In this document: positions 11,793 through 56,250 of the stretch, piece after piece
How positions within the stretch are numbered: the stretch's first letter is position 1
Layout of the letters: each line of letters opens with the position of its first letter
NCBI GenBank assembly: GCA_017412605.1
Contig: JAFPWY010000008.1
Location: forward strand, 186,001-250,000
Direction: 5' to 3'
Length of the DNA: 64,000 nt
Source: Fibrobacter sp.
Lineage (GTDB): Bacteria; Fibrobacterota; Fibrobacteria; Fibrobacterales; Fibrobacteraceae
Program-made: the position numbers and the translations under genes
The notes under the pieces: generated by a model
What the model was told of the DNA's origin: nothing
Seen by the model: only the letters and a program-made list of their open reading frames with translations
Databases searched by the model: none

Positions 11793-11804
11793 GGGAGAAA
11801 GCAT

Positions 11805-12416
11805 ATGTCTAATGTGAAAACGACCGGAAAGAAATCTTCGAACACCTTGGTGCGCGACCTAGTGAATGTCGGAATTTTTGCGGCACTCTACATCGTACTC
11901 GGATTCATTTCATCGAGTATAGGCTACATTCCGGCGTTTATTGTTGTCTCGACATGCAGTATTAGCCTGGTAACGAGCATTCCTGTATTTTTATTCTTCT
12001 CAAAAATAGATAGGCCGATTCCCTGTTGCATGCTGTTTTGCGGCATTTTCGGGGGTGCAATGCTGGTTATGGGACAGGGCATTTTGATGTTTGCAATTAG
12101 TCTGGCTGTCGGCCTTGTGGTTGGCTCGTGTCTGAAATTCATCGGCAAGGGCTTTGCAGGTTGTTACTCCGCAAATATCGTACTAAGCCTCATGTCGTCT
12201 TCGATGATGCTTCCGCTTTGGACTTCTACTGAAGAATACCTAGAATATACGCGCACTATGTGCGACGCAGGCTACGTGGCGAAACTGAAGGAACTATCTC
12301 AAAGTTCTTGGCCTTTGGTTGCAATCTACGCTTTCGGCATTTTGGGTGCCGTTGTGGGCGGGCTCGTGGCGCGTCGCGTGATGAAAAAGCATTTTGAACG
12401 CATCGGACTTGCATAG
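11805..12416 (+). CDS. MptD-family ECF transporter S component
   Basis: The 203-residue membrane protein has about six hydrophobic segments and the look of the MptD/Trep_Strep S-component family: VRDLVNVGIFAALYIVLGF at the start, GYIPAF, a central FGGAMLVMGQG loop, and a C-terminal GAVVGGLVARRVMKKHF. S components bind the substrate and dock on EcfT-EcfA-EcfA'. The family substrate is not established; in mycobacteria the namesake gene lies in a siderophore-transport cluster. A GGGAG ribosome-binding site precedes the ATG. EcfT and the ATPase follow directly, so this is a group-I type dedicated ECF transporter. Confidence 0.85.
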   Translation: MSNVKTTGKKSSNTLVRDLVNVGIFAALYIVLGFISSSIGYIPAFIVVSTCSISLVTSIPVFLFFSKIDRPIPCCMLFCGIFGGAMLVMGQGILMFAISLAVGLVVGSCLKFIGKGFAGCYSANIVLSLMSSSMMLPLWTSTEEYLEYTRTMCDAGYVAKLKELSQSSWPLVAIYAFGILGAVVGGLVARRVMKKHFERIGLA

Positions 12417-12419
12417 AAT

Positions 12420-12453
12420 TGTCATTGCGAAAAACGAGGTGACGAAGCAATCT
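12420..12453 (+). repeat. REP-like dispersed repeat, family A, between S component and EcfT
   Basis: TGTCATTGCGA....GAAGCAATCT matches copies at 16107, 51699, 60835, 60881 and 61502. It lies in the ecfS-ecfT junction and is in frame with ecfT if a far-upstream TTG start is used. Confidence 0.8.
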
Positions 12454-12465
12454 AGGGCTGAATTT

Positions 12466-13194
12466 GTGATTACGTTAGACCCGCGGACAAAACTTTTCTT
12501 GGCGATAGTGGCGAACAGCGTCATTATTTCGGCTCCGCTTGTTTACAGCGCTTTGATGTTTGCGGTTCCTGCGATTTTACTTTTATTCGAAAAAAAGTGG
12601 AAATTTGTCCTTGCATTCTTCTCGTTGTATCTAGCGGCGGCACTGGGTTTTGAACACCTGAAGACGATGGATGTCGGAAGAGTAGGAACGCTGGCCGTTT
12701 CGACGATGATGCTGATTTCCCATATGATGCCTATCGGCATTGTGCTTTATTATGTCATGCAGACGACCAAGGCGAACGAATTCATGGCGGGAATGTCAAA
12801 GATGCATATTCCCAACAAGGTGACGATTCCCTTGACGGTAATGATTCGTTTTTTCCCGACAGTATTCGATGAATCGCATGCCATCAGCAACGCAATGAAA
12901 ATGCGCGGAATTCGTTTATTCAGTTTGCAGACGCTGAAGAACCCGTTTACAATTTTGGAATACCGGCTAATCCCCTTGCTTGTCTCGCTGACGAAAATAG
13001 GTGACGAACTTTCGGTTGCTGCATCAACTCGCGGACTGGTCCCCGAAACTAAGCGCACCTGCGTTGTGCCGATCGGTTTTCACGTGCAAGACGCAGTAGT
13101 ATTTGTTTATTGTATTGCGGTTTTAACATGCTTTTTCATTACGAGCAAATCGAAGCAATCCATTATAGATATTGTAAGTAATCTTTTCAGTTAA
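12466..13194 (+). CDS. ECF transporter T component (EcfT/CbiQ family)
   Basis: From the GTG at 12466 the protein has about 243 residues and begins at the conserved ITLDPRTKLFLA segment where EcfT proteins usually start; an AGGG tract lies 8 bp upstream. A TTG at 12394 is in frame but would overlap the S-component gene and translate the REP repeat. Five to six membrane segments and two Arg-Gly coupling motifs (AMKMRGIRLF and AASTRGLVPE) identify the scaffold that links the S component to the two ATPase domains. The stop lies one base before the ATPase start, so the genes are coupled. Confidence 0.88.
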   Translation: MITLDPRTKLFLAIVANSVIISAPLVYSALMFAVPAILLLFEKKWKFVLAFFSLYLAAALGFEHLKTMDVGRVGTLAVSTMMLISHMMPIGIVLYYVMQTTKANEFMAGMSKMHIPNKVTIPLTVMIRFFPTVFDESHAISNAMKMRGIRLFSLQTLKNPFTILEYRLIPLLVSLTKIGDELSVAASTRGLVPETKRTCVVPIGFHVQDAVVFVYCIAVLTCFFITSKSKQSIIDIVSNLFS

Positions 13195-13195
13195 A

Positions 13196-14665
13196 ATGAA
13201 CATCACCCTCAAAAAAGTTTCGTTCTCCTACACCGACAGCATTTACGATGCCGTTCTCAAGGACATAAGCTTACAAATAAATTCTGGTGAATGTGTGGTG
13301 CTGGCAGGAGAATCGGGTTCTGGGAAAACAACGATTTCCAAGTTGATTAACGGATTGATTCCACTTTACCACTCGGGAACGATGGCAGGCGACGTGCTCT
13401 TGGGCGACAAGAATACCTCCGACATAACGCTCGCCGAGATTTCGAAGTACGTGGGCTCCGTGTTTCAGAATCCGCGATCGCAATTTTTCAATGTCGACAC
13501 GGATAGCGAAATTGCGTTCGGTTGCGAAAACTTGGGCATTAAACCGGAAGAAATCCGCCGCCGTATAGAAAAAACGGTCACGGATTTTCATCTGGAATCA
13601 TTGCTGGGTCGTAATATTTTCCACCTTTCGGGAGGCGAAAAGCAGAAGATTGCCTGTGCTTCAGTGGATGCTACGGACCCGGATATTTTCGTACTCGACG
13701 AGCCCTCCGCCAATCTTGACTTGAAAACCGTTGCAGACCTTGCCGAAATCATCAAGATTTGGAAATCACGAGGTAAGACCGTTGTCGTGGTGGAACACCG
13801 ACTGCATTACTTGCGAGATGTCGCTGACCGCATTATCTATGTGAAAGAAGGACACATTGAATGCGAATGGACTCCCGCCGAACTCGAATCGAAGGGCACT
13901 ACATATACAGCAAGTCTCGGGCTACGCTGCATGAATTTGGAGTCGCTTGGCGAGCCTAATCGTGAAGATTGTCATTCCCGCGAAGGCGGGAATCTCCCTT
14001 CTTGCTCACAAACCTCGAATATCGTCTTCAAAGACCTTTGTTTCGCCTACAATCCCAAGTTTCCTATTTTAGAGATTCCGACGTTCACGCTCCCTCGCGG
14101 TCAAATTACAGCTCTTATCGGCCATAACGGCGCCGGAAAATCGACCCTCGCGCAATTGGTATGCGGCCTTTGCGGTTCCCGGAGCCAAAAACGCGCCGTC
14201 CGCAAACTGGGAACCTACCTGATTATGCAGGACGTGAACCACCAATTGTTCACCGAAAGCGTGCTTGACGAGGTCCTGCTGGGCATGAGCCCAAAAGACA
14301 AATCAGCCGCTCTTGAAATTCTCGACTCCCTCAATCTTAAAAGCTACGCCGAAAAGCACCCGATGGCTCTTTCGGGCGGCCAAAAGCAGCGTGTCGCCAT
14401 CGCAAGCGGAGTCAGTTCGAACCGCGACCTGATTGTATTCGACGAACCTACCAGCGGTCTCGATTATCGACAGATGCTTGCCGTTTCTGCAACGTTAAAA
14501 ACGCTTGCAAACCGTGGCAAGACGCTCTTCGTGATCACCCATGATCCCGAACTCGTTCTGAACTGCTGCCATCACGTCATCCATATGGACCATGGCCGCA
14601 TTGTCAACGAATTTCCCCTACAGGGAAACGAAAACAAACTTATCCATTCATTAATGTGCAAATAA
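13196..14665 (+). CDS. ECF transporter fused double ATPase (EcfA-EcfA')
   Basis: The 489-residue protein contains two complete ABC ATPase domains in tandem. Domain 1 has Walker A GESGSGKTT (38-46), Q-loop SVFQNPRSQFF typical of ECF ATPases, signature LSGGEKQK and Walker B FVLDEPSANLD. Domain 2 has Walker A GHNGAGKST (about 308-316), signature LSGGQKQR (about 392) and LIVFDEPTSGLD, ending with an H-loop ITHDPE. The linker (about residues 255-275) contains CHSREGGNLPS, which is the translation of a REP-like repeat. It energises the S and T components encoded just upstream. A bidirectional terminator follows. Confidence 0.93.
   Translation: MNITLKKVSFSYTDSIYDAVLKDISLQINSGECVVLAGESGSGKTTISKLINGLIPLYHSGTMAGDVLLGDKNTSDITLAEISKYVGSVFQNPRSQFFNVDTDSEIAFGCENLGIKPEEIRRRIEKTVTDFHLESLLGRNIFHLSGGEKQKIACASVDATDPDIFVLDEPSANLDLKTVADLAEIIKIWKSRGKTVVVVEHRLHYLRDVADRIIYVKEGHIECEWTPAELESKGTTYTASLGLRCMNLESLGEPNREDCHSREGGNLPSCSQTSNIVFKDLCFAYNPKFPILEIPTFTLPRGQITALIGHNGAGKSTLAQLVCGLCGSRSQKRAVRKLGTYLIMQDVNHQLFTESVLDEVLLGMSPKDKSAALEILDSLNLKSYAEKHPMALSGGQKQRVAIASGVSSNRDLIVFDEPTSGLDYRQMLAVSATLKTLANRGKTLFVITHDPELVLNCCHHVIHMDHGRIVNEFPLQGNENKLIHSLMCK
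13971..13998 (+). repeat. REP-like repeat, family B, inside the ECF ATPase gene
   Basis: GTCATTCCCGCGAAGGCGGG followed by AATCTCC is a short palindromic repeat; a near-identical copy is at 25884-25910 inside the restriction gene. Here it encodes the inter-domain linker. Confidence 0.85.
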
Positions 14666-30281: not shown

Positions 30282-30757
30282 ATGAATAACGAAAACACGT
30301 TTTCGATTTTAATGCGCAATGTGGCAGACCGAATTGCATCCGTTCGAAATCATAAAATCATTTTGGATGCCGATGTCGCTTTGTTATATGGTGTAGAGAC
30401 AAAGCGAATCAATGAGGCGGTCAGGAACAATCCTGACAAGTTTCCCTCGACATATATGTTCCAGTTGTCAAAGGACGAAGTTGAAATTTTGCGGACGAAA
30501 ATTTCGTCCACAAATTATTCGGCCAAAAGCAGATCTTTACCCTACGCTTTCACAGAAAAAGGCCTCTATATGCTTGCGACAATCTTAAAAAGCAAGACGG
30601 CGACAAGGAGGAAAAGCATTCGAAAATGCAGCATTTCGGAGAGATTCTCACAAACATCGTTATGCCGGATTTAGAAACAACGGAAACAGAATCCTCGCTG
30701 GAACTGAACTTTATCATAGGCAAGATAAAACATTCCGTAAAGCGTGTTAAGCGATAG
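30282..30757 (+). pseudogene. ORF6N-domain protein, frameshifted with central deletion
   Basis: The N-terminal ~105 residues are a good ORF6N domain (VALLYGVETKRINEAVRNN, FQLSKDEVEIL, YAFTEKGLYMLATILKS). After KSKTAT the frame shifts and the original frame ends at 30674. In another frame, 30615-30757 encodes MQHFGEILTNIV and LELNFIIGKIKHSVKRVKR, which fits the usual C-terminal end of such proteins. The connecting coiled segment (roughly 40 residues) is missing, so this is a deletion or frameshift remnant. ORF6N proteins occur in phages and mobile islands. Confidence 0.75.
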
Positions 30758-32141: not shown

Positions 32142-33164
32142 TCACACAAGACATTTTGATGACAAGGCGAATTTTATTTTTTTTATAATATTCCCATTCG
32201 TCTTCCGCATAGCATTAGAAAGTCCACGGAAATACTTTAATGTAAGGGCAACCAACGAATCCCCTTCGGGGCGAAGGCTCGCAACGCATTGCGAAAGCGC
32301 CGATACCGCGGAAAGTTTCATAGCTTGCAATATCCCGACAAGCAAGGCTCCTTCTGTTATGCCAAAAGAAAATACAGAATAAAGAACCTTGCCAGAGGGG
32401 ACTAGAATATTTGCAAAGACAACGAAAAGCCACATAACAAGATGCGGAGTAAGCAGAATTTTTCGTCCCGAAACTCTTTGAGCAATTACAGAAGCGACAA
32501 GGCACACCCCTAGGATTTTCAAGTCATCCAGCATCAAGATAAACACAGCAGCAATTGCTATTACGACAGCAGTTGTAACCACAAAGGATTTTTTATGAAG
32601 GCAAATTTTCGATGCATTTTCACTCAATGTCGGGGCAATTTGGGGAATATGTAAGTGAAGTGCCATAAAAGCCGTAAGGATTCCCGCAAAAAGCGAAAAA
32701 AGAACCATAGGGCCAAGCAATGCATACGTACCCTCACCCAGATAAAGGCTCGCCAAGGCTATTTGCACAACAGAACTTGCCGAAGCACCCGCTATCGAAA
32801 TTCCATAAAGAGAAATAAATCTTATTTTCCCTGAATTTCTCCAGCTAAAGAGGTGATAAAGAGTATACATGACAATCGCTGAACTCACAGACTGCCCCAA
32901 CGAAAGCAAGAAAAACGGAGTAAGTAACGTCCCCGCCATAAGGGATGCCGCAAACGCCTTTATCACCGAAAGCAATATGTAAGAAGGGAATGGCAGTGTG
33001 AAGGACAAAAGCATTACGACATTGCCTAGCCCAAGCCTAAAAAAGGGAAGCGTTCGTGGAAGGAACATCTCGGCATACGAGAAAAGCAGAGCCAAAGCGC
33101 CTAGATAAGCGATATATTCTTTTTCACGCATCCATTTCGATGTCTGTTCATTGAGCAATGGCAT
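32142..33164 (-). CDS. Gx transporter / heptaprenyl-PP synthase component I-like membrane protein (EetB-like)
   Basis: The protein (340 residues from the ATG at 33164) has an N-terminal block of about five helices matching the Hpre_diP_synt_I / Gx transporter family (EYIAYLGALALLFSYAEMFLP, FFRLGLGNVVML, LSVIKAFAASLMAGTLLTP) and a C-terminal block of further helices. I prefer the ATG at 33164 because GGAGGG lies 6 bp upstream; a start at 33194 is in frame. It overlaps the NusG-II gene by 17 bp. The same pair, Gx plus NusG-II, forms the EetB/EetA membrane unit of flavin-based extracellular electron-transfer loci; that role is inferred from the neighbouring ApbE and flavo-lipoprotein. Confidence 0.82.
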   Translation of the reverse strand: MPLLNEQTSKWMREKEYIAYLGALALLFSYAEMFLPRTLPFFRLGLGNVVMLLSFTLPFPSYILLSVIKAFAASLMAGTLLTPFFLLSLGQSVSSAIVMYTLYHLFSWRNSGKIRFISLYGISIAGASASSVVQIALASLYLGEGTYALLGPMVLFSLFAGILTAFMALHLHIPQIAPTLSENASKICLHKKSFVVTTAVVIAIAAVFILMLDDLKILGVCLVASVIAQRVSGRKILLTPHLVMWLFVVFANILVPSGKVLYSVFSFGITEGALLVGILQAMKLSAVSALSQCVASLRPEGDSLVALTLKYFRGLSNAMRKTNGNIIKKIKFALSSKCLV

Positions 33165-33522
33165 CGTAGCCCTCCGAATCTTCGACATGGACAATAACCT
33201 TGTTGGGGAGGCAAACTAGCGTTTTACCGAATCCTTGGCGGATGCAAGTTTTGTTCTTGCATGGAGAACTTATAATATGCGTGCGCCCACCCTTAATTTC
33301 TATGACCGTTTCACCAAGATGTCCTTTGACGCGATGGATTCCGTCTTCCTTTAAACTGAACTCATAAACACCGCCTTCAGCATGCACCGTAATCTTATCA
33401 CCCGACACGCGCAGGGAATCTTGCATGACATAAATTGCACCAACGAGAATCAAGGCAAAAAGCAGATAATCTAAAGGTCTTGTCTCTTGAAAAATTTTTG
33501 TAAAAATCCATTTTGCACGCAT
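33148..33522 (-). CDS. NusG domain II-containing membrane protein (EetA-like)
   Basis: From the ATG at 33522 the protein has 124 residues with one membrane anchor (PLDYLLFALILVGAIYVM) and an extracytoplasmic NusG_II domain ending with the conserved pair SSPCKNKTCIRQGFG (two Cys) and CLPNKVIVHV. NusG_II proteins pair with Gx/HepS-I proteins in Rnf-, ApbE- and EET-linked loci. The operator-like palindrome at 33555-33571 lies 33 bp upstream, shared with the divergent apbE gene. It overlaps the Gx gene, so the two form a coupled unit. Confidence 0.85.
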   Translation of the reverse strand: MRAKWIFTKIFQETRPLDYLLFALILVGAIYVMQDSLRVSGDKITVHAEGGVYEFSLKEDGIHRVKGHLGETVIEIKGGRTHIISSPCKNKTCIRQGFGKTLVCLPNKVIVHVEDSEGYDAIAQ

Positions 33523-33554
33523 CGACACCAAATATAAATTCTAAATTAAGATTT

Positions 33555-33571
33555 GTTTAGACCAGTCTAAC
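33555..33571. promoter_or_regulatory. DtxR-type operator between eetA-like gene and apbE
   Basis: GTTTAGACCAGTCTAAC is a near-perfect inverted repeat in the 51-bp divergent gap. It ends 2 bp before the apbE ATG. Confidence 0.65.
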
Positions 33572-33573
33572 TT

Positions 33574-34617
33574 ATGAAGTTCATTATCGCAAAAAAATAT
33601 CTACCATTCACATTGGCCGCGTTGTTTTTTATTTCTTGTTCCAAAGAAGAAACCGCAAAGCCGGCCCCCTCGCCATCGGAAAACGTAAAATCCTTTGAAG
33701 CCATGAACACCTTCATGACCATCAAAAGCTACGGCCCAAATGCCAGCGAGGCAAACGATTCCGCAGAAGTTCTTGTACAACAACTGGAATCATTACTTTC
33801 TACCACTAGGGATTCTAGCCATATTTACAAGCTGAACCACTCCGAAAGATATCCCGTGCAAGTCGATGCCAAGGTTAAGAAACTAGCCGATTTCTCCTTA
33901 GAAATGGCCAAAGAGACAGACGGAGCTTTAAATCCCGTACTCTATCCCATTGTACACGCCTGGGGGTTTACCACCGAGAATTACAGGGTTCCCTCTGACA
34001 GTGAAATACAGAATATTTTGCCCTTGACTGACTACAATCAGGTCAAAATTTCGGAAACCGGAATTTCAATGAAACCTGGAATGATGATGGATCTAGGAGC
34101 CGTCGGAAAAGGATACACCGGAGACCAAATTCTTGCCTTGTTAAAATCCAAGGGAATGACTTCGGCCATTCTGGATTTAGGCGGCAACGTCCAGACTCTC
34201 GGGTGCAAAAAAGACGGGAAAAAATGGAAAGTGGGTATCACCAATCCTTGGGACGGTCCCCCTATCGGAGGCATAGAAGTCTGCGACATGGCCGTTATTA
34301 CCAGCGGAGGTTACGAAAGATTCTTTGAAAAGGAAGGAAATCGTTACATTCACATCTTTGACGGAAAAAAAGGAAAAACCGTAGAAAACGGTTTGTCGGC
34401 GGTTACAATTATCGCAAAAAGCGGACTTTATGCCGATGCACTGAGCACCGCCCTATTTGTCATGGGCGAAGAAAGCGCCATTGAATTTTGGAAAAAAAAT
34501 CGTAACAAATTCCAGATGCTTTTGTTGCGCGAAGACAAAAGTGCTATTTACACTAATGAACTTGAGTCTGTTATAAAATTTACCTATAACATAAACAATA
34601 GAATAGTCATCGACTAG
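33574..34617 (+). CDS. apbE: FAD:protein FMN transferase (ApbE) lipoprotein
   Basis: The 347-residue lipoprotein (lipobox FISC, Cys22) has the ApbE motifs in order: MNTFMTIKSYG, HAWGF, DLGAVGKGYTGDQIL, AILDLGGNVQTLG, TSGGYERFF, and the metal-site region YADALSTALFVMG. It transfers FMN from FAD to Thr/Ser of target proteins on the outer side of the membrane. The downstream lipoprotein carries two Asp-x-x-Thr-x-Ala-Thr sites that fit its target motif. No ribosome-binding site is seen; the operator abuts the ATG, so the mRNA may be leaderless. Confidence 0.95.
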   Translation: MKFIIAKKYLPFTLAALFFISCSKEETAKPAPSPSENVKSFEAMNTFMTIKSYGPNASEANDSAEVLVQQLESLLSTTRDSSHIYKLNHSERYPVQVDAKVKKLADFSLEMAKETDGALNPVLYPIVHAWGFTTENYRVPSDSEIQNILPLTDYNQVKISETGISMKPGMMMDLGAVGKGYTGDQILALLKSKGMTSAILDLGGNVQTLGCKKDGKKWKVGITNPWDGPPIGGIEVCDMAVITSGGYERFFEKEGNRYIHIFDGKKGKTVENGLSAVTIIAKSGLYADALSTALFVMGEESAIEFWKKNRNKFQMLLLREDKSAIYTNELESVIKFTYNINNRIVID

Positions 34618-34663
34618 TTATTTATTGGCGACAAAATTTTATCGCACATCAATTTTTTTTAAA

Positions 34664-34699
34664 TTAGCCTCATCTAACAATAACTTAGCCCAGTCTAAC
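34664..34699. promoter_or_regulatory. Tandem DtxR-type operators before the flavo-lipoprotein gene
   Basis: TTAGCCTCATCTAAC (34664-34678) and CTTAGCCCAGTCTAAC (34684-34699) are two imperfect palindromes of the same class as 33555, spaced two helical turns apart. Confidence 0.6.
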
Positions 34700-34726
34700 C
34701 ACGACTGGCAGTCCAATGAGGTAAAA

Positions 34727-37267
34727 ATGAAAAAAACAACCGCTATAAGAACGGCAGGATTATCCTGCGCGCTCGCATTCGGCCTGACCGCATGCGGTGA
34801 CGATGTCACCAAGTACTACGATTCCGAAGGGAGAGAAATGTCAGTTACTGACACTCTTCTAGTAAAGGAAGTCATCACAGACTACGATACCATCGTGGTA
34901 ACCGAGGTGATTACTAAAAAAGACACCATAAAGGCGACCGATGTCATCACGAAAAAAGACACCATAAAAGTGACCGACGCCATCACTAAAAAAGACACCG
35001 TGAAAGTGACCGACGTGATTACGAAAACGGACACTGTGAAAACAACCATTGTCATAAAGGACACTATCCGCGATACCATCAAGGTGGAAGTCATTCCCGA
35101 GATCCCGGAAGCAGACCTAGTCTATGGTACAGTAAATTTGACCTATGCTCAGTTCTACTATGGAGAAGTAAACAACGTAGATCCAGAATTGTACGCTACA
35201 ACTGGAATTTACGACAAAGCAAGCATCCCCGATTCATTTGATGGTTATGACGCATTCACCAGCGCAACCACAAACAAGTACAAGAATTTCGGCCAGCTCG
35301 ACGCAGACGTTGGAGAAAAAACGACCGAACTGAAGGGAGTCAAGGCTGTAAATGTGGCCATCAGCAAAGCCCTTTACGACGAAGTGAAGAACAATGGATC
35401 TGAAAACGATAATAGTGATTTGTACAAGCTCGTTTCCGCAATAACTGTCATCGAAGACGCTCCAGCCGAATATAAGGTCATCAACTCCAGCGGCGTATTG
35501 AGCAAAACCATCGGAAAGACCATCACGCGAGCAGCCTCGCCTACAATCACCTCCAGCTCTAACTGGGGTAATTACATGGTTGTCATTCCAGGCATAGACA
35601 TTACGGAAGCCAACACGAACAATTTACAAGGTATCGTTTTGGAAACCGAAGACGGCGAAAGCTACGGACTCATTCACCTCGGAAACATCTGGATGGACGT
35701 CCGCGAATTCGCATTCAGCGTCACCGAATTCATGGGCGGACACGGTGCGCAGCCATACAAAGCGACCACAGATATCGCAGGCAAGCGCATTTCTTCCATC
35801 CGTTACCTGCTCAAGGACGCTCCCGACGTCGTCTTGTCTACGAGTCTCTATATTCCCGTACAGGTTCCCGTTACGGCTGCCGTCGCCGAAGATAACGGCA
35901 GCATAACCTTCACGGCCGACGCTGCTATCGGCAATTACCGTTCTGCCAGCCTGAAGCTGGTCAGCTACTCCGTTGGTTCTGGCAGGAACGCGGTGACAAC
36001 AAATATCGCTAACGGTAGCGCCTTCAGCACTCGCTCAACCAGCATTAAATTCCCGACAGACGGTCTCAAGGCTGGCAGTTATACATTCACATTCGAAGAT
36101 GTCAACGGAATTGCCGCTACATGCAATGTCAAGGTAACACTCGAACAGGACGGAGCACCGGTTGAAGACCTGTCCGGTATACTTTACGGCACGGTGAACC
36201 TGACTTATGCGCAGTTCTTTAATGGCGAAATCAACGATATTGCCGCAAACGAAACCGCGACTGCCGGAAACTACAACGCAACAAGTGTTGCCGCTTGGGT
36301 CGAAGAAGATTACGACGCATTCACCAGTGCGACAAAGAGCAAGTACACCTTCTACGGTCAGGTTGACGCAGAAGTCGGCGAAGCCACATCTCAGTTGAAA
36401 GGCGTAAAGGAAGTGAATGTCGCCATCAGCAAGGCTCTTTATGCCGATGTGCAGAAGAAAATTGCAGCAGACGCCCAAGAAACCGACGGAAACGATCTCA
36501 TCGCTTTGGTCAAGGCCGCCACATGGGGAACAGAAAAGCCCGCAGAATACAAGGTCATCAACCCTGACGGATCCGTCAGCAAGACCCAGGGTGTAACCTA
36601 TAGCAGAAAAGCATCCACTGAACCCACCATATCAACTTCGTCCAACTGGGGTAATTACCTGGTTCAGGTGAATGGAATCGACATTGTCGAAGCCAACATG
36701 AAAAATCTGCAATCCATTATCCTTGAAACCGAAGATGGAGTAAAATACGGCCTTATTCACTTGGGCAACATCTTTAACAACGCTGGTGAGTTCGCATTCA
36801 GCGTAGCTGCCATGACGGAACCTCACGGCAACCATGTTCCATACTTGTCGACTGAAGATATCGAGGGCAAACGCATCGTCAAAATTCTTTACATGCTGAA
36901 GGACGCTAACGACATAGAACTTTCGACTAGCATTTATGTGCCAGTTCGCATTGGCGTAAGTGCAAATGCTGAATCCGTTTCCGTGGGCGATGAAATCACC
37001 TTTACGGTCGATGACGCGATTTCCAACTACACAAGCGCCAAGCTCAAGTTGGTAAGCTACACAGTGGGATCCGGCAGAAATGCAAAAACAACTGCTATCG
37101 AAAATGGGGGAACGTTCAGTTCTAGGGCAAAGAGCATTAAATTCGACACCTCCGTGTTGACAGTCTCCGAAGAAACCTCTTACAAGTTCAACTTTACTGA
37201 TGCCTCCGGAATCCTCTCCGGGACGTCGGTAACGGTAGCTGTTAAGCCAGCATCTTCTGAAGAATAA
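34727..37267 (+). CDS. Two-domain lipoprotein with predicted flavinylation sites (PplA/Tp47-C-like)
   Basis: From the ATG at 34727 (GAGG ribosome-binding site) the protein has 846 residues: lipobox LTAC (Cys23), five 12-residue repeats of the type VITKKDTIKVTD (49-108), then two homologous units starting YGTVNLTYAQF (about 132 and 486). Each unit holds a DAFTSAT site (Asp175-Thr181 and Asp530-Thr536) in the register of the DxxSGAT sites flavinylated by ApbE in NqrC/RnfG. The unit resembles Tp47 domain-C proteins of gut bacteria. It follows apbE by 109 bp with its own tandem operators. Likely an outer-surface electron carrier; alternative, a heme- or peptidoglycan-binding lipoprotein. Confidence 0.72.
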   Translation: MKKTTAIRTAGLSCALAFGLTACGDDVTKYYDSEGREMSVTDTLLVKEVITDYDTIVVTEVITKKDTIKATDVITKKDTIKVTDAITKKDTVKVTDVITKTDTVKTTIVIKDTIRDTIKVEVIPEIPEADLVYGTVNLTYAQFYYGEVNNVDPELYATTGIYDKASIPDSFDGYDAFTSATTNKYKNFGQLDADVGEKTTELKGVKAVNVAISKALYDEVKNNGSENDNSDLYKLVSAITVIEDAPAEYKVINSSGVLSKTIGKTITRAASPTITSSSNWGNYMVVIPGIDITEANTNNLQGIVLETEDGESYGLIHLGNIWMDVREFAFSVTEFMGGHGAQPYKATTDIAGKRISSIRYLLKDAPDVVLSTSLYIPVQVPVTAAVAEDNGSITFTADAAIGNYRSASLKLVSYSVGSGRNAVTTNIANGSAFSTRSTSIKFPTDGLKAGSYTFTFEDVNGIAATCNVKVTLEQDGAPVEDLSGILYGTVNLTYAQFFNGEINDIAANETATAGNYNATSVAAWVEEDYDAFTSATKSKYTFYGQVDAEVGEATSQLKGVKEVNVAISKALYADVQKKIAADAQETDGNDLIALVKAATWGTEKPAEYKVINPDGSVSKTQGVTYSRKASTEPTISTSSNWGNYLVQVNGIDIVEANMKNLQSIILETEDGVKYGLIHLGNIFNNAGEFAFSVAAMTEPHGNHVPYLSTEDIEGKRIVKILYMLKDANDIELSTSIYVPVRIGVSANAESVSVGDEITFTVDDAISNYTSAKLKLVSYTVGSGRNAKTTAIENGGTFSSRAKSIKFDTSVLTVSEETSYKFNFTDASGILSGTSVTVAVKPASSEE

Positions 37268-37441: not shown

Positions 37442-38569
37442 CTAGAAGCTGAAAACGGATTCAAGTCCAAAGGTAAGCCCTGTATCGTCGCCAGCGTCAT
37501 CCCCAACAGGGATATCCACCATGGCAAAGCCTGTGACTTCAAGACCTTCCACCGGAGTGAAGTAAACACGGAGACCGAAATCGAACGTTGAAGTATCGTC
37601 ATTCTTGTCCACGGTATTCGTGTGATATTCCAGCGGGAGTCCCAAGGCCAGCGCATCCATGACACTTACACCCGGTTCTGCGTAGGCAAAGAAGTATTCC
37701 GGAATTTCTTCGCCATGATCAGTCGGTTCGTCTTCGTCAAAGTAAGCGTAGAAAGCAGCGCCCTTCACGTTCACATTGCCAATTTCGAGCGAGGGTTCAG
37801 CCAAGAAAGCGTGCGTCGCCTTCGGAGAATCCTCACCGAGGTAATCCGAATGCAGGCCATAGACGGCATGCAGGCCGAAAGCACCGAACTTCAGATTCGC
37901 ATCGAGACCGGCGTGCAGCTCATTGTGTTTCGCTTCCTGATAGGACTTGTAGTCCACATAGGGGCGCAGCACATGTTCGCCGAGGCCGAGTTCGTAAGCA
38001 AGGTGGGCATCGTAAGCAACGCCTACACATTCCTCTTCATCTTCTTCTCCGGTGCAAACCTGGTTGTCGTTATCACCACGACCAAAGCCGAGGCCGACAA
38101 TCAAGCCATTGTAATCGACTTCAACGCCGCGGATATCGTGTTCTGCCATGCCAGCCGCATTGTCAGCCGGATCGTCATAACCGTAATAATTCAGGAATGC
38201 GCCTTCCGAGAAGGTCAAATCGCCGAACTTCACCGCAGCATTTTCGCCATGCGTATACTGGATAAATGCTCCATTGTAAATGGCAGTGGGGTCAGTCGTC
38301 TCGCCATCGGCTTCGAGCTGCACCGATGCAGACCACTTTTCATTAAACTGGACATCTACATTAAAGTCAAAGGTCGATGCGTAACTATGGCTCTGTTTAT
38401 CGTCATTCAACACATCACCTGTATAGGCATCAAATTCTACTTCGCCAGAGAATTTGACTTCGGGGCCCTTAGATTCCGCAGCAGCAGATTCCTGAGCAAG
38501 CGCGGGCATTGCGAGGATTGCAGCGGCAGCAAGGCTGAATAAAAGATTAGACGACAAACGGTTTTTCAT
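37442..38569 (-). CDS. Outer-membrane beta-barrel protein (porin-like)
   Basis: The 375-residue protein has a Sec signal cleaved after ALA (PALAQESAA) and alternating hydrophobic beta-strand pattern throughout (VKFSGEVEFDAY, FDFNVDVQFNEKWSASVQLE, VKFGDLTF), ending with the C-terminal Phe typical of barrel proteins (GLESVFSF). Length and acidic loops suit a general or specific porin. An operator-like palindrome at 38718-38732 lies 149 bp upstream, which suggests metal-responsive expression. No specific family recognised. Confidence 0.75.
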   Translation of the reverse strand: MKNRLSSNLLFSLAAAAILAMPALAQESAAAESKGPEVKFSGEVEFDAYTGDVLNDDKQSHSYASTFDFNVDVQFNEKWSASVQLEADGETTDPTAIYNGAFIQYTHGENAAVKFGDLTFSEGAFLNYYGYDDPADNAAGMAEHDIRGVEVDYNGLIVGLGFGRGDNDNQVCTGEEDEEECVGVAYDAHLAYELGLGEHVLRPYVDYKSYQEAKHNELHAGLDANLKFGAFGLHAVYGLHSDYLGEDSPKATHAFLAEPSLEIGNVNVKGAAFYAYFDEDEPTDHGEEIPEYFFAYAEPGVSVMDALALGLPLEYHTNTVDKNDDTSTFDFGLRVYFTPVEGLEVTGFAMVDIPVGDDAGDDTGLTFGLESVFSF

Positions 38570-38717: not shown

Positions 38718-38732
38718 TTAGTCTAGTCTAAC
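38718..38732. promoter_or_regulatory. DtxR-type operator upstream of the OM protein gene
   Basis: TTAGTCTAGTCTAAC, in the 235-bp gap between feoB2 (stop) and the OM protein start. Confidence 0.6.
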
Positions 38733-38804: not shown

Positions 38805-41753
38805 TTAATCTTCGAAGCGTTTTTCCTTGTTAGCCTTCATACCGAAGAGCTTGAGGAAAATTCCCGTACCCACGAGCACTGCGATGGCTGCGACAATCCA
38901 CGTCACGTTTCCGCCAACAGGCACTTGGTAAAGGAGCACTGCAATGGCCCAAGCAAGCAGTGTCTGCACGGTCGCCATGAGAACAGCGAGGCCGAGGCCG
39001 ATTTCGCGGGCGACGACACCCATCGCAGCAAGGCAAGGCACGTAAAGCAAGATGAAGATGAGGAACGCAAACACCTGCCAATTAAAGCCATCCACCGGGG
39101 TACCGTTCTTATCCGGATTGTGGAAGTAAGAGCGGAGGTTCGCGTAAATGTCGGCAGTTTCGGAAAGGTCGCCTTCTTCGAGAGCGCCCATTTCGTCTTC
39201 GGAGAGTTCGAGGCCTGCGGCAGCGAGTTTTGCAAACACGGCTTCGCGGGTCTTTTCATCCTCTTCTTCTTCGCCGAAGGTTTCGATGGCTGCATATTCT
39301 TCGCAGGTCAGCACCTTGGCGTCGGTAATCTTGTCAAGAGTTTCCTTCTTGAGTTCGGCAGCTTCCTGGCCTTCCAATTCGCCGGTGGTTCCGAGCGGGT
39401 CGGTGAGCGAGCCAAAGACTTCGGCGAGGTTAGCGGGAATCGAACCGAGGGCTTCGAGCACGGCCTCCTTGATGTCGGGAGCGCCGCCTTCTTCCTCTTC
39501 TTCGGCGGGGCATTCGTCGATGCCTACGATAAGGGGCTTTTCTTCGGCAGGAGCGGCTTCGGCAACAACTTCTGCGGATTCAGCAGGTGCTGCGGCACTA
39601 TCGGCAACCACTGCGCTATCGGTTACAGCGGAATCAGCAGCTGCAACAGTCGAATCGGCCTTCACGATATCCGTAGCGACAGAGTCAGCAACCGCCACTT
39701 GTTCCGGGGCGGATTCTTCAGCCTTCGGTTCTTCAACAGGTTCCGCAGCCTTATTTTCTTCTGCAGGCTTAGCCTCTTCAGCAGCCTCTTCGTTCTCACC
39801 CACCATCGAATACAGCGAGTTCATGGTACCGATAACGGCTTCCTTGGCCAAAAGGCCCGTGAACAGAGACACAGAGGCCGGCCAGTTTTCCTTTTCGACA
39901 CCGAACGGTTCGAACACCGGCGTAATGGCCTTACCGATTACAGAGAGCAAGCTGTTTTCGGAGTCCCCGTTACCGGCAGTGAATTCATTAGCAGTGGAAA
40001 TCTTGGATTCATCAACCATGAATCCTTCGGGGAGAGCGACATTTTCAGCTTCGCCTTCCTCGTTTTCCTTAACCATCTGGAAGCCATCTTCAGACTTGAC
40101 GATTTCAGTCTCGGTACCGTTCACATCGACATACATCTTTTCCACGATGCCGAAACTGTTGAGGAAGCCGAGAACAGCAACCGCAAGCGTAATCACCTTA
40201 CCGGCACGCCAAATGTAGTCACGCAGGCGCTGCCAGCAGTGGATCATCAAGGACTTGAATTTGGGCAAATGATACGGCGGAAGTTCCATCACAAAGTTAG
40301 AGGCCTGACCCTGGAACAGGGACTTCTTCAAGAAGAGGCCGTAGGCAACGGCGAACAGCACGCCAGCGAGGTAAAGCAGGAACACGACCGTGCCCGCCAT
40401 CTTGCCAAAGAATGCCGCCGCGAACAGCGCATACACCGGGAGGCGAGCGCCGCAGCTCATGAACGGCACCAGGAAGATGGTGAGGAAGCGTTCACGCTTG
40501 GATTCCAGCACGCGAGAGCCCATAATGCCCGGCACGCCGCAACCGAAGCCCACCATCATCGGCACGAAGGCACGACCCGGGAGCCCGAGGAATCTCATGA
40601 AGCGGTCCGCGACGAAAGCCGCGCGGGCCATGTAACCCGAGTCTTCGAGGAACGAAAGGCACAGGAACATGAAGAAGATGACCGGAATGAAGGTCGAAAC
40701 CGTCTGGATACCGGCACCGATACCGTCGGCGAGAATTGCCGTGACAAAAGACGGGCAACCAAGCACATCGCCCAGCACGTAGCCGAGGCCATCCACGAAA
40801 ATCGCACCGAACAACACATCAAAGAAATCAATGAATGCAGAACTGATGGTGACCGCAATCCAGAACACCAAATACATGATGACAAGGAAAATCGGGAGAG
40901 CGGCCCAACGGTTCAAAAGTACGGCGTCAAGCTTGTCCGAGAAAGTTTTCTTGGCACGCTTCTCCACAACAGCCTTCCCCGCCACTTCATGCGCAATGGA
41001 ATAGCGGTTTTCGGCCATCGCGAACTCCGGCTCTTCGCCCAGAATCTTCACGACATCGGCCTTATGAAGCGTTACGCCCGCTTCGGCAAACTTGTCCGCA
41101 TAACTCTTCTGGTTGCCCAAGTACATGAGCGAAACCCAACGGGCATCCGTCGCCAAGAGTTCTGCAACCGGAGCCACCTTCGGCTCCAAGACCTTCACAG
41201 CCTCTTCGACCTTATCGGCATAGGCAATCTGCTTCGGGACCGGCATCGGGCTTGCTAGCACATGGCCCATCTGGCTGATAAAGTTAGTGACGCTCTTTTC
41301 GCTCACAGCAGAAAGCGGAATGCACGGTACGCCGTAGAAATCAGAAAGTTCATCGAGGTCCAGCTGGATTCCACGATTTTCGGCGATGTCCATCATGTTG
41401 ACGGCAATCACCATCGGAATCTTCATGTCGGCAAGCTGGCTCGTGAGGAACAGGTTACGTTCGAGGTTCGTTGCATCGACAATGTTGATGATCAGGCTTG
41501 CTTCGCGGCTAAGCAGGTAGTCGACAGCGGCGCGTTCGTCTTCAGCATTTGCGAACAAAGCGTAAGTACCCGGAAGGTCCACCAGGCGAATCTGGCGGTC
41601 ACCTAGTTCAAAGTAGCCTTCCTTCTTTTCGACAGTCACGCCGGGCCAGTTACCCACATGCTGACGGGCACCCGTAAGCGCGTTGAAGAGCGCCGTCTTA
41701 CCGCAGTTCGGGTTACCGGCAATCGCAATCGTCAAAAGTTTTCTTGCGGCCAT
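38805..41753 (-). CDS. feoB: Ferrous iron transporter FeoB with large acidic insertion
   Basis: The 982-residue protein is much longer than usual FeoB (about 700-800). It has G1 GNPNCGKTALFN (13-24), VGNWPGVTVE, G3 DLPGTYALF, G4 NMMD and the membrane core motifs GCGVPGIMGSRVLES, LPPYHLPKF and GLLAKEAVIGTMNSLYS. Between two membrane blocks (about residues 652-889) sits an insertion of Ala/Glu/Pro/Asp-rich low complexity followed by a helical acidic segment (LTCEEYAAIETFGEEEE). It is the last gene of a dtxR-feoA-feoB operon with TAATG coupling to feoA. The insertion may be an external or cytoplasmic metal-binding or regulatory region. Confidence 0.94.
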   Translation of the reverse strand: MAARKLLTIAIAGNPNCGKTALFNALTGARQHVGNWPGVTVEKKEGYFELGDRQIRLVDLPGTYALFANAEDERAAVDYLLSREASLIINIVDATNLERNLFLTSQLADMKIPMVIAVNMMDIAENRGIQLDLDELSDFYGVPCIPLSAVSEKSVTNFISQMGHVLASPMPVPKQIAYADKVEEAVKVLEPKVAPVAELLATDARWVSLMYLGNQKSYADKFAEAGVTLHKADVVKILGEEPEFAMAENRYSIAHEVAGKAVVEKRAKKTFSDKLDAVLLNRWAALPIFLVIMYLVFWIAVTISSAFIDFFDVLFGAIFVDGLGYVLGDVLGCPSFVTAILADGIGAGIQTVSTFIPVIFFMFLCLSFLEDSGYMARAAFVADRFMRFLGLPGRAFVPMMVGFGCGVPGIMGSRVLESKRERFLTIFLVPFMSCGARLPVYALFAAAFFGKMAGTVVFLLYLAGVLFAVAYGLFLKKSLFQGQASNFVMELPPYHLPKFKSLMIHCWQRLRDYIWRAGKVITLAVAVLGFLNSFGIVEKMYVDVNGTETEIVKSEDGFQMVKENEEGEAENVALPEGFMVDESKISTANEFTAGNGDSENSLLSVIGKAITPVFEPFGVEKENWPASVSLFTGLLAKEAVIGTMNSLYSMVGENEEAAEEAKPAEENKAAEPVEEPKAEESAPEQVAVADSVATDIVKADSTVAAADSAVTDSAVVADSAAAPAESAEVVAEAAPAEEKPLIVGIDECPAEEEEEGGAPDIKEAVLEALGSIPANLAEVFGSLTDPLGTTGELEGQEAAELKKETLDKITDAKVLTCEEYAAIETFGEEEEDEKTREAVFAKLAAAGLELSEDEMGALEEGDLSETADIYANLRSYFHNPDKNGTPVDGFNWQVFAFLIFILLYVPCLAAMGVVAREIGLGLAVLMATVQTLLAWAIAVLLYQVPVGGNVTWIVAAIAVLVGTGIFLKLFGMKANKEKRFED

Positions 41754-42037
41754 TATACCCTCCTCAGCTTAAGAACGTTTGCTTCTTCCTTGCGCAGCGA
41801 AAGCCTGTACGAAAGTACTGCCACCTCGATCGGGTCGCCGAGAGGGGCCGCCTGCAAGACTTCAATCTGCACGCCACGCACAAGCCCCATCGAAAGGAGC
41901 TTGGACTTGTAAGCGGAATCGCCTTCGTTATAGCCGACGATTTCCACCTTGTCGCCACGTTTTAAGTCTGAAAATTTGGGATCCATATCCCATTTCTTTG
42001 CAGGGGTTTTGCCTCCGCATCCACAATTACAACTCAT
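41753..42037 (-). CDS. feoA: FeoA-domain protein with Cys-rich N-terminus
   Basis: From the ATG at 42037 the protein has 94 residues. It begins MSCNCGCGGK, with three Cys in alternating positions that could bind a metal, followed by an FeoA SH3-like domain (FSDLKRGDKVEIVGYNEGD, KLLSMGLVRGVQIEVLQAAP, EVAVLSYRLSLRKEEA). The start overlaps the dtxR-type stop by four bases (ATGA), and its stop overlaps the feoB start by one, so the three genes are translated as a unit. The longer in-frame start at 42127 lies inside the regulator gene and is rejected. Confidence 0.92.
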   Translation of the reverse strand: MSCNCGCGGKTPAKKWDMDPKFSDLKRGDKVEIVGYNEGDSAYKSKLLSMGLVRGVQIEVLQAAPLGDPIEVAVLSYRLSLRKEEANVLKLRRV

Positions 42038-42432
42038 TTTTTCCTCTTTTTGAGATGTTCCACAGATTTCATATACTCTTCGATTTTGGCGAGCGTCTCG
42101 GCCGAAAGGATATGTTCCATATTGCAAGCGTCCTCGTTTGCCGCTTCCTCCGACACTCCCAAATGAATCAAAAACTGCCTCAGTAAAAGATGTCGGCTCA
42201 AAATGGTAACCGCGACTTTTTTCCCTTCTTCGGTGAGTTCCACGCCGCTGTAAGGCTCCTGCGACACGAGCCCCTGTTTCTTGAGTTCCGCCACAGCGCG
42301 CGCCACCGAAGGCATTTTTACGGTTAGGGCGGCAGCAATGTCCCTGATTCGGGCGATTTTGTTGGTCTGGAGCAAAACGTGAATCACTTCCAAATAATCT
42401 TCAAGACTCTGAGTTAGCTTTGATCGTTTCAT
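42034..42432 (-). CDS. DtxR/MntR-family metal-dependent regulator 1
   Basis: The 132-residue protein has a winged-helix DNA-binding domain (QSLEDYLEVIHVLL, IRDIAAALTVKMPSVARAV, EPYSGVELTEEGKKVA) and a dimerisation/metal domain (SRHLLLRQFLIHLGV, DACNMEHILS) but no SH3 tail. Likely metal ligands are Asp12, Glu15, His81, Cys103, Glu106 and His107: the Asp/Glu pair is MntR-like while Cys-x-x-Glu-His is DtxR-like. It leads the feoA-feoB operon and probably represses it and its own gene through the palindrome at 42455-42477. Confidence 0.92.
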   Translation of the reverse strand: MKRSKLTQSLEDYLEVIHVLLQTNKIARIRDIAAALTVKMPSVARAVAELKKQGLVSQEPYSGVELTEEGKKVAVTILSRHLLLRQFLIHLGVSEEAANEDACNMEHILSAETLAKIEEYMKSVEHLKKRKK

Positions 42433-42454
42433 TCTACGCCTAAAAATGTTTTCC

Positions 42455-42477
42455 TAGTCTAATTAGACAAGGCTAAT
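42455..42477. promoter_or_regulatory. DtxR-type operator(s) before regulator 1
   Basis: Overlapping palindromes TAGTCTAATTAGAC and ATTAGACAAGGCTAAT, 23-45 bp upstream of the start. A further half-site GTCAAGGCTAAT is at 42499-42510. Confidence 0.65.
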
Positions 42478-42620
42478 GTAGAAAAAACAGAATAGTTCGT
42501 CAAGGCTAATATTGTTGGTTTAGGAAAATTTACTTAGATTTAGCTAAAATTGTATCAAAATAAAAAGAAAGGACGAAACAACCCATTTCGCCCATATATA
42601 TGTATTGATTACGATTATGC

Positions 42621-43046
42621 CTATTTTTTCGTGTTTTTTGCGGCCTTGGCCTTCTTGCCCGCAGCAGGTCCCTCGGCAGGGCCCATGAAGTCCTCGATTT
42701 TGCCCAGTGTTTCGCCCGAAAGGATGTGTTCCATGCAGCAGGCGTCCTTGTCGGCAATGGCTTCGGAGACGCCCAGTCGAATCAGGAAACTTTTGAGCAA
42801 AAGATGTCGGTTCAGAATCGCGGCGGCAACGCGCTGGCCTTCTTCGGTGAGTTCCACCCCGCCGTACGGTTCCTGAGTCACGAGCCCCAGCTTCTTGAGT
42901 TCAATCATCGCCTTGGCCACAGACGGCATTTTGACCGAAAGAGAGGCCGCGATATCCTTGACACGGGCAATTCCGTGGGCGAGGCGCAACATGTGCACCA
43001 TCTCCAGGTAGTCTTCAAGACTTTGGCTGAGTTTTGTGTTTTCCAT
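42621..43046 (-). CDS. DtxR/MntR-family metal-dependent regulator 2
   Basis: The 141-residue protein is a paralogue of regulator 1 with the same ligand positions (Asp12, Glu15, His81, Cys103, Glu106, His107; motif DACCMEHILS, with an extra Cys104) and a Lys/Ala/Pro-rich C-terminal tail (PAEGPAAGKKAKAAKNTKK). It sits between the Feo operon and a P1B ATPase, each of which has its own spacing, so it could sense a different metal or control efflux. Its own promoter contains a palindrome (43063-43080). A 188-bp gap separates it from regulator 1. Confidence 0.92.
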   Translation of the reverse strand: MENTKLSQSLEDYLEMVHMLRLAHGIARVKDIAASLSVKMPSVAKAMIELKKLGLVTQEPYGGVELTEEGQRVAAAILNRHLLLKSFLIRLGVSEAIADKDACCMEHILSGETLGKIEDFMGPAEGPAAGKKAKAAKNTKK

Positions 43047-55322: not shown

Positions 55323-56159
55323 TCACGCGACGTTTGTCATCCTGTATTTTTTCCTGTATTCCTTGGGGGTCATGCCCATCACGTCTTGGAAGGCGTGGGC
55401 AAATTTACTCCCGTTGTTGTAGCCGACCGTGCCTGCAATCTCAAGGATTCCCCGGTCACATTCGCGAAGCTGTCTTGCGGCACGCTTCATTCGCTCACGG
55501 CGAGCATAGGTAAATACAGGGAGACCGAATACGTTCTTGAAGCAGACCTTCATTGCAGTAGGCGGCATGTCGAACTTGTCGGCAAGTTCCTCGATGGTGT
55601 AGTGGGAATCGATGTTGTCGCAAATGAAGGAACGGATGCCGTAAACCTTTTCTGCCTGGAGCATTGAGATGTTGCAATCGCGACAGACCGATTCGCGCTG
55701 GGCATCCATATTCTTGAGAGTAACCAGGATTTCAAGGAGCCCGAGTCGGCCATATTCCTGACAAACATTTTTCTGGGTGTGTGCGAACTTCGAGAAAACC
55801 GCCTGGATTTCTTCGTGCGTGTGCACGATAAAGGGCTTTTCGTGAATGTTGAATTTTTTCTGGATGGAATCCAGGTCGATGTCGAAGCCCCCGAAATTCT
55901 TGCGGATTGCATCTACCGCTTCTTCATAGAACAAGATGATGTCTCCGCAGTAATCTGCCGAACGCTTGAGACCGCTCAAGATCCAACCATCGCAAACGAT
56001 CATTTCACCCGGTTCCATGTGGTTGCAGGGCAAGAGCCCTCCAGCCCATTCCACGCGTCCCTGCCGGCAGAATTCCAGAGCAAGTACAGGAACCTTAGAA
56101 GAAATTACACCGGCCGTACCGATGTTTTGGCGCCATTCTATTCCAACGATATTTAACAT
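55323..56159 (-). CDS. AraC-family transcriptional regulator (YbtA-like context)
   Basis: The 278-residue regulator has a C-terminal double helix-turn-helix (YTIEELADKFDMPPTAMKVC; ILEIAGTVGYNNGSKFAHAF; MTPKEYRKKYR) and an N-terminal sensor-like part. Its position before an exporter-fold ABC pair matches YbtA-type regulators that sense siderophores. Two DtxR-type palindromes lie upstream (56187-56202 and 56237-56250), so it may itself be repressed by iron. Effector unknown. Confidence 0.9.
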   Translation of the reverse strand: MLNIVGIEWRQNIGTAGVISSKVPVLALEFCRQGRVEWAGGLLPCNHMEPGEMIVCDGWILSGLKRSADYCGDIILFYEEAVDAIRKNFGGFDIDLDSIQKKFNIHEKPFIVHTHEEIQAVFSKFAHTQKNVCQEYGRLGLLEILVTLKNMDAQRESVCRDCNISMLQAEKVYGIRSFICDNIDSHYTIEELADKFDMPPTAMKVCFKNVFGLPVFTYARRERMKRAARQLRECDRGILEIAGTVGYNNGSKFAHAFQDVMGMTPKEYRKKYRMTNVA

Positions 56160-56186: not shown

Positions 56187-56250
56187 GTTAGCCTTGGCTT
56201 AAAAAGTGAGATAAATCTAACTTCATGCAAAAACTTTGTCAAGGCTAACT
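56187..56250. promoter_or_regulatory. Two DtxR-type operators upstream of the AraC gene
   Basis: GTTAGCCTTGGCTTAA at 56187-56202 is a near-perfect palindrome; TTGTCAAGGCTAAC at 56237-56250 is a weaker one. Confidence 0.65.

Follow-up and report, generated by a model that had tools for sequence, protein, structure and literature searches.

Among the closest described systems to the locus reported here is the extracellular electron transfer (EET) locus of Listeria monocytogenes, which encodes EetA, EetB, FmnA, FmnB, and PplA. Listeria EetB (PF07456) binds flavin adenine dinucleotide (FAD) and resembles energy-coupling factor S (ECF-S) subunits; it is needed for PplA flavinylation and FAD export to ApbE, and the EET defect is partly cured by external FAD (PMC9973259). 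A clean eetA deletion leaves EET normal, and fusions of EetB to ECF-T domains are reported (PMC9973259). Other flavinylation clusters, which are Fur regulated and PepSY-like or P19 associated, serve iron assimilation, and some have no membrane donor of their own (PMC8238504). Here, we describe a four-gene module in a 64,000-nucleotide stretch of a Fibrobacter sp. genome (contig JAFPWY010000008.1, positions 186,001 to 250,000; hereafter, the window). On balance, we regard it as a portable, iron-regulated flavinylation system comprising likely FAD export, a predicted carrier of two flavin mononucleotides (FMN), and probably assimilatory Fe(III) reduction.

As in Listeria, genes for a NusG_II protein, a PF07456 protein, ApbE, and a lipoprotein with two candidate flavin sites are clustered. 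The first-pass annotation had placed these four genes (the second as Gx/HepS-I-like, the fourth as a double-DAFTSAT lipoprotein) at the coordinates where we also found them. The features of the module are as follows.

32142 to 33194, minus strand: EetB-type (PF07456) membrane protein, 350 amino acids (aa) (Pfam PF07456, E value of 6e-21, residues 31 to 179)
33148 to 33531, minus strand: NusG_II/EetA-like protein with a hydrophobic segment at the N terminus (Pfam PF07009, E value of 9e-17)
33557 to 33570: iron box TTAGACCAGTCTAA, in the divergent promoter of the NusG_II gene and apbE
33574 to 34617, plus strand: ApbE, FAD:protein FMN transferase (Pfam PF02424, E value of 8e-79)
34664 to 34698: two iron boxes 5' of the carrier gene, imperfect at 34664 and full at 34685
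34727 to 37267, plus strand: carrier lipoprotein, 846 aa, with a signal peptide, lipobox LTAC, a stalk, and two Tp47-like units
35249 to 35269, plus strand: predicted flavinylation site 1, DAFTSAT (Asp175 to Thr181; FMN expected on Thr181)
36314 to 36334, plus strand: predicted flavinylation site 2, DAFTSAT (Asp530 to Thr536; FMN expected on Thr536)

The PF07456 and NusG_II genes overlap by 47 bp, the NusG_II gene and the divergent apbE are 42 bp apart, and the carrier gene follows apbE. In contrast to the Listeria locus, the Fibrobacter module has a carrier without an FMN_bind domain, an ECF-T half that is possibly fused to the EetB-type protein, and control by boxes of the feo type.

The carrier probably starts at the ATG at 34727 rather than at a TTG further upstream. 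A stalk of 12-residue repeats (residues ~40 to 125), encoded by 3.7 copies of a 36-bp tandem repeat, precedes two units (residues 131 to 482 and 483 to 846) that are about 55 to 56% identical and contain one DAFTSAT each. No other stretch of invariant columns in the carrier family is as long as YDAFTSAT, which spans 8 columns compared with 5 for the next longest (7 units, 45 to 99% identity), and on this ground the carrier is very probably an ApbE substrate; the motif closes with a Thr at the position where ApbE attaches flavin. At least two D-x-x-[ST]-[GS]-A-[ST] motifs were present in only 2 of 5,000 shuffles of the carrier (mean of 0.03 motifs per shuffle), and the only other match in stop-free frames of at least 150 codons in the window was DSSSSAS at 56555. 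Repeated domains with one ApbE-type site each are also found in the multiflavin carriers PplA, SaFMN3, and CbFMN4, which differ from the Fibrobacter carrier in having FMN_bind domains and Dxx[ST]GAT rather than Dxx[ST]SAT. The carrier matched no Pfam (including FMN_bind), NCBIfam, or PDB sequence, and a sequence profile search of the whole PDB was empty, in agreement with the earlier suggestion that it represents a new carrier type. The many weak matches to residues ~10 to 125 in the genome searches correspond to the signal/stalk region of many other Fibrobacter proteins. They were rejected as carrier relatives because only this region is common, and the stalk has the look of a linker in general use across the genus.

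A profile of the carrier detected 5 of 168 Fibrobacterota genomes, all of them Fibrobacter: the genome of the window, one 97% relative, and three genomes with a single-unit version. Units 1 and 2 are closer to each other (56%) than to the single-unit relatives (45 to 48% identity), so the unit was probably duplicated within the lineage to which the window genome belongs. When the carrier, ApbE, PF07456, and NusG_II were searched separately in 80 Fibrobacter genomes, each was found in the same five only (G000, G028, G029, G052, and G057). The naive chance of such co-occurrence is 4e-8 per gene pair, although the five genomes represent about two lineages and hence fewer independent events. The carrier gene adjoins apbE in all five, and the module stays together in three chromosomal settings with differing gene orientations. 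FMN_bind, the usual ApbE substrate and diagnostic of NqrC/RnfG, was found in none of the 80 genomes, and NqrB/RnfD was found in none of the 8 genomes searched; positive controls for both searches matched in other organisms. There is therefore no rival ApbE substrate of those kinds, with substrates of the DUF2271, DUF3570, and Flavodoxin_4 families lying outside the search. As judged from these gene contents, Fibrobacter is as a rule without flavinylation, and where flavinylation is predicted, all four genes occur together. The invariant motif and the strict co-occurrence with ApbE thus support the first-pass proposal of an ApbE substrate with two FMN sites.

No carrier relatives outside Fibrobacter were found among the 168 Fibrobacterota genomes, plasmids, or viral contigs, and a scan of the genome collection returned a single relative (97%). 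Candidates with Tp47-like motifs, sought in viral contigs with three hand-made DNA patterns, were unrelated proteins only. By gene names read by eye, the neighbors of the module are thiamine-type genes in G052 and G028 and tetrapyrrole-type genes in G057. The thiamine gene setting (loci L061 and L063, in G052 and G028) could tempt annotators to the old name "thiamine lipoprotein ApbE," but the other genomes do not share it.

The best structural match that we could find for the carrier is the Treponema pallidum lipoprotein Tp47, which has one unit and DAVSRAT where the Fibrobacter carrier has two units and DAFTSAT. The family search and structure prediction foreseen in the first-pass annotation yielded no known family and a weak model: the AlphaFold2 model of unit 1, built from 7 sequences, had a pLDDT of 64.7, and its motif region (residues 10 to 75) fell below 50, which is too low to judge burial of the Thr. 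In a Foldseek search of 350,542 PDB chains with this model, the top two places went to the two Tp47 chains of PDB entry 1o75 (E values of 3e-6 and 1e-5; ~300 columns, 13 to 14% identity), with a TM score of ~0.3 indicating poor superposition. When the carrier profile was compared with the Tp47 sequence in the letters of entry 1o75, Tp47 residues 10 to 68 placed DAVSRAT onto DAFTSAT, and the two proteins have the N-terminal pattern YG..xL[ST]YA..[YF]xxGE ... DA[VF][ST]xAT in common. The N-terminal 80 aa of Tp47 outscored 5,000 of 5,000 shuffles, and the full chain outscored all but 7 of 5,000. The Pfam Tp47 models (PF14889/PF14888), both of which match Tp47 itself, had no match to the carrier at an E value of 10, where the HMMER filters drop weak ones. 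Tp47 was not among the 50 VIA-align entries listed; for carrier residues 137 to 345, these were mainly FN3-type beta domains, a common arrangement (Z scores of 7 to 9). Overall, the carrier units are likely homologous to Tp47.

Tp47 is described as a penicillin-binding protein. A literature search found no paper linking it to flavinylation. T. pallidum possesses an ApbE, Ftp (PMC4767422). It is conceivable, if rather doubtful, that Tp47-like domains form a new class of ApbE-flavinylated carriers, with the Fibrobacter lipoprotein as an active duplicated member; Tp47, a major lipoprotein that keeps DAVSRAT at this site and whose host encodes Ftp, would then be a flavin carrier, or the descendant of one, and not in the first place a penicillin-binding protein.

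The second line of evidence concerns regulation. The following features adjoin the module.

37442 to 38569, minus strand: putative outer-membrane barrel protein (barrel guessed from sequence), assigned to the same regulon by an iron box 5' of its start
38718 to 38731: iron box TTAGTCTAGTCTAA, 5' of the gene for the putative barrel protein
38805 to 42432, minus strand: operon of feoB, feoA, and a DtxR/MntR-like repressor
42463 to 42509: iron boxes before the DtxR-feoA-feoB operon, full at 42463 and with one mismatch at 42496

The box TTAGACCAGTCTAA ends 3 bp before the ATG of apbE, within the 42-bp divergent promoter. With one mismatch allowed, TTAGNCNNGNCTAA occurred 8 times in the window, compared with 0.83 +/- 0.95 expected. 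Across all 3.53 Mb of the genome, 7 sites had no mismatch. Four of these fall in this 9-kb stretch: two belong to the module, and the gene for the putative barrel protein and DtxR-feoA-feoB are each preceded by one. Another feoB, on contig 11, has two sites upstream with a spacing of 33 bp, and the seventh site, within an open reading frame on contig C15, was taken as chance rather than as an operator. The DtxR-feoA-feoB operons of G052, G057, and G028 have one to three full boxes in front, and G028 has a further full box just downstream of feoB (L079:7151). We trained a weight matrix only on feo boxes unlinked to the module (those of the relatives' DtxR-feoA-feoB operons and of the contig-11 feo genes) and applied it to the module loci L061, L062, and L063, which span 14 to 20 kb each and have no feo genes nearby. 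The top site was in the apbE promoter in all three, only a few bases from the start codon in L061 and L063, and a second site lay within ~60 bp of it. Since L061 and L063 are close relatives, the result counts as two independent confirmations. By the boxes and the feo-trained matrix, the module shares its operator with feo operons independently of linkage.

The first-pass annotation had drawn its coupling to iron from iron-box-like operators and from two Feo systems nearby. The operators support this, as the same boxes stand at feo operons in the window genome and in its relatives. The window does contain two FeoB genes (9762 to 11792 and 38805 to 41753), but the module sits among other genes in G052, G028, and G057, and feo adjacency was rejected as evidence because it is not conserved. 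Because the targets common to the boxes are feo genes, iron would be the natural choice of regulating metal, with manganese possible. The DtxR-feoA-feoB operon next to the module is the probable source of the regulator.

Further observations concern these surroundings. The putative barrel protein had no Pfam or PDB relative. Two DtxR/MntR-like regulator genes stand in tandem before feoA-feoB (42034 to 43046), compared with one in the feo operons of the relatives, and they are possibly paralogues with different metals. Toward its end, the FeoB at 38805 to 41753 (982 aa) has a long, acidic insertion rich in Ala and Glu; its G028/G057 relatives are of similar length (916 to 944 aa). At 56188 to 56248, two iron-box-like sequences with one mismatch each lie 5' of an AraC-type regulator gene (55323 to 56159, minus strand), which has two ABC exporter half-transporters after it and may belong to the same regulon. 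An ORF6N-like protein at 30282 to 30674 has 130 aa, compared with 186 aa in the 97% relative (L003), which suggests recent truncation.

The three remaining proteins of the module are ApbE, the EetB-type protein, and NusG_II. ApbE carries the lipoprotein signal FISC and matches ApbE/FmnB in the PDB; in the alignment, Ser244, His260, and Asp288, the catalytic triad by position, are invariant in all five relatives. The EetB-type protein is about twice the length of PF07456. Its N-terminal half is ECF-S-like, and its C-terminal half, also well conserved, resembles the N-terminal part of PF02361 (ECF-T, EcfT/CbiQ) below threshold (E value of 0.18; 0.016 in a relative). In whole-genome PF02361 scans of G057 and G028, this half was the sole CbiQ-like match, with E values of 0.003 and 0.008, respectively. 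A fusion to an EcfT-like half is probable; the AlphaFold2 model of the protein (pLDDT of 45) was too poor to use. By analogy with Listeria EetB, there is good reason to expect that the Fibrobacter protein acts in FAD export. NusG_II has three invariant Cys residues in the alignment (SPCxNKxCIRQG...VCLPNK). The first-pass annotation had taken NusG_II and the PF07456 (Gx) protein as a quinone unit in the membrane from which the carrier would receive its electrons. We rejected such a conduit on the Listeria findings of an FAD-binding, ECF-S-like EetB and of a delta-eetA mutant with no EET phenotype (PMC9973259). Elsewhere in the window (9762 to 14662), the second FeoB (676 aa) is directly followed by an ECF cassette of an MptD/Trep_Strep-type S component, EcfT (CbiQ), and a fused double ECF ATPase. 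Its ATPase may be shared with FAD export, or the arrangement may be an unusual feo-ECF pairing.

We propose that the EetB-type protein, to which an EcfT-like half is probably fused, moves FAD through the inner membrane, as suggested by its family and by co-occurrence. ApbE would then move FMN from FAD to Thr181 and Thr536, a step strongly suggested by the invariant motif, the strict co-occurrence, and the carrier being the only candidate substrate found. The di-FMN lipoprotein on its stalk may carry electrons across the envelope. A regulator acting at the DtxR-type box, as at feo operons, would control transcription, so that the module is presumably made when the cell seeks iron. Most likely, the module would reduce Fe(III), or iron bound to ligands, beyond the inner membrane, and FeoB would then import the Fe(II). 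The PepSY-like and P19 clusters are similar in tying a flavinylated extracytosolic carrier to iron assimilation, and those with P19 also have no membrane donor of their own. They differ in carrier and operator, and no PepSY or P19 domain was present among the annotated window proteins.

Several points weigh against this proposal. The published ApbE motif is Dxx[S/T]GA[S/T], and the DxxSGAT register assigned to DAFTSAT in the first-pass annotation holds at the Asp, Ser/Thr, Ala, and Thr positions but not at Gly, which is Ser in all carrier units. In the Klebsiella fumarate reductase motif, a change of Gly to Ala cuts flavinylation by ~50% (review, PMC12052999). No membrane electron donor is visible in the module, and ferric reduction by it is a proposed role. 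The genome-wide total of TTAGNCNNGNCTAA equals that of a reversed-pattern control, and placement alone is exceptional. Likewise, the matrix scores for the loci of the relatives are higher than the mean shuffle maximum but lie below its 95% point, so that the evidence is one of position, and the module box of G057 is imperfect. Finally, the regulators are of the DtxR/MntR type, with best scores to MntR models below the cutoffs, which makes Mn rather than Fe possible.

The alternative that survives best, although we consider it improbable, is Listeria-like EET for energy, in which the carrier, fed from the quinone pool, would respire Fe(III) oxides, humics, or quinones. The combination of EetA, EetB, and ApbE homologs with a multisite lipoprotein is that of the Listeria locus. 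However, the module contains no Ndh2, quinone, or demethylmenaquinone genes and no PplA-type domains, and the Nqr/Rnf families were not found in the searches described above. Such ndh2/demethylmenaquinone genes were also absent from the annotated window neighbors, and none were recognized by eye in the flanks of L061, L062, and L063. EetB is accounted for by FAD export, EetA is dispensable in Listeria (PMC9973259), and operators in common with feo point to iron supply, that is, to assimilatory reduction rather than extracellular or respiratory electron transfer. Less probable still is a flavinylated carrier with a task other than iron, such as guarding envelope proteins against oxidation or supplying an unknown reductase, under a Mn-responsive regulator in a manganese/oxidative-stress response. 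The subthreshold preference of the feo-operon regulators for MntR models and the three conserved NusG_II Cys residues, which could be redox active, are consistent with this idea, whereas the same boxes at feoAB in every genome examined favor ferrous iron. It is very unlikely that the carrier is not flavinylated, with DAFTSAT a structural motif of the Tp47-like domain and ApbE modifying an unrecognized protein, since the Ser in place of Gly and the DAVSRAT at the same position in Tp47 (a possible fold signature) are outweighed by the strict co-occurrence and adjacency with ApbE, the lack of FMN_bind and NqrB/RnfD in the genomes searched, and an invariance centered on the seven-residue ApbE recognition sequence.

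The module described here would extend the short list of proteins flavinylated by ApbE with a probable new substrate fold. It would also be a case of flavinylation controlled by an iron operator of the feo type, in a fiber-degrading gut genus that is otherwise without ApbE, and the EetB-ApbE mechanism would become testable in a simple four-gene setting. The link to Tp47, if true, would provide a biochemical lead on an abundant lipoprotein of long-unclear function.

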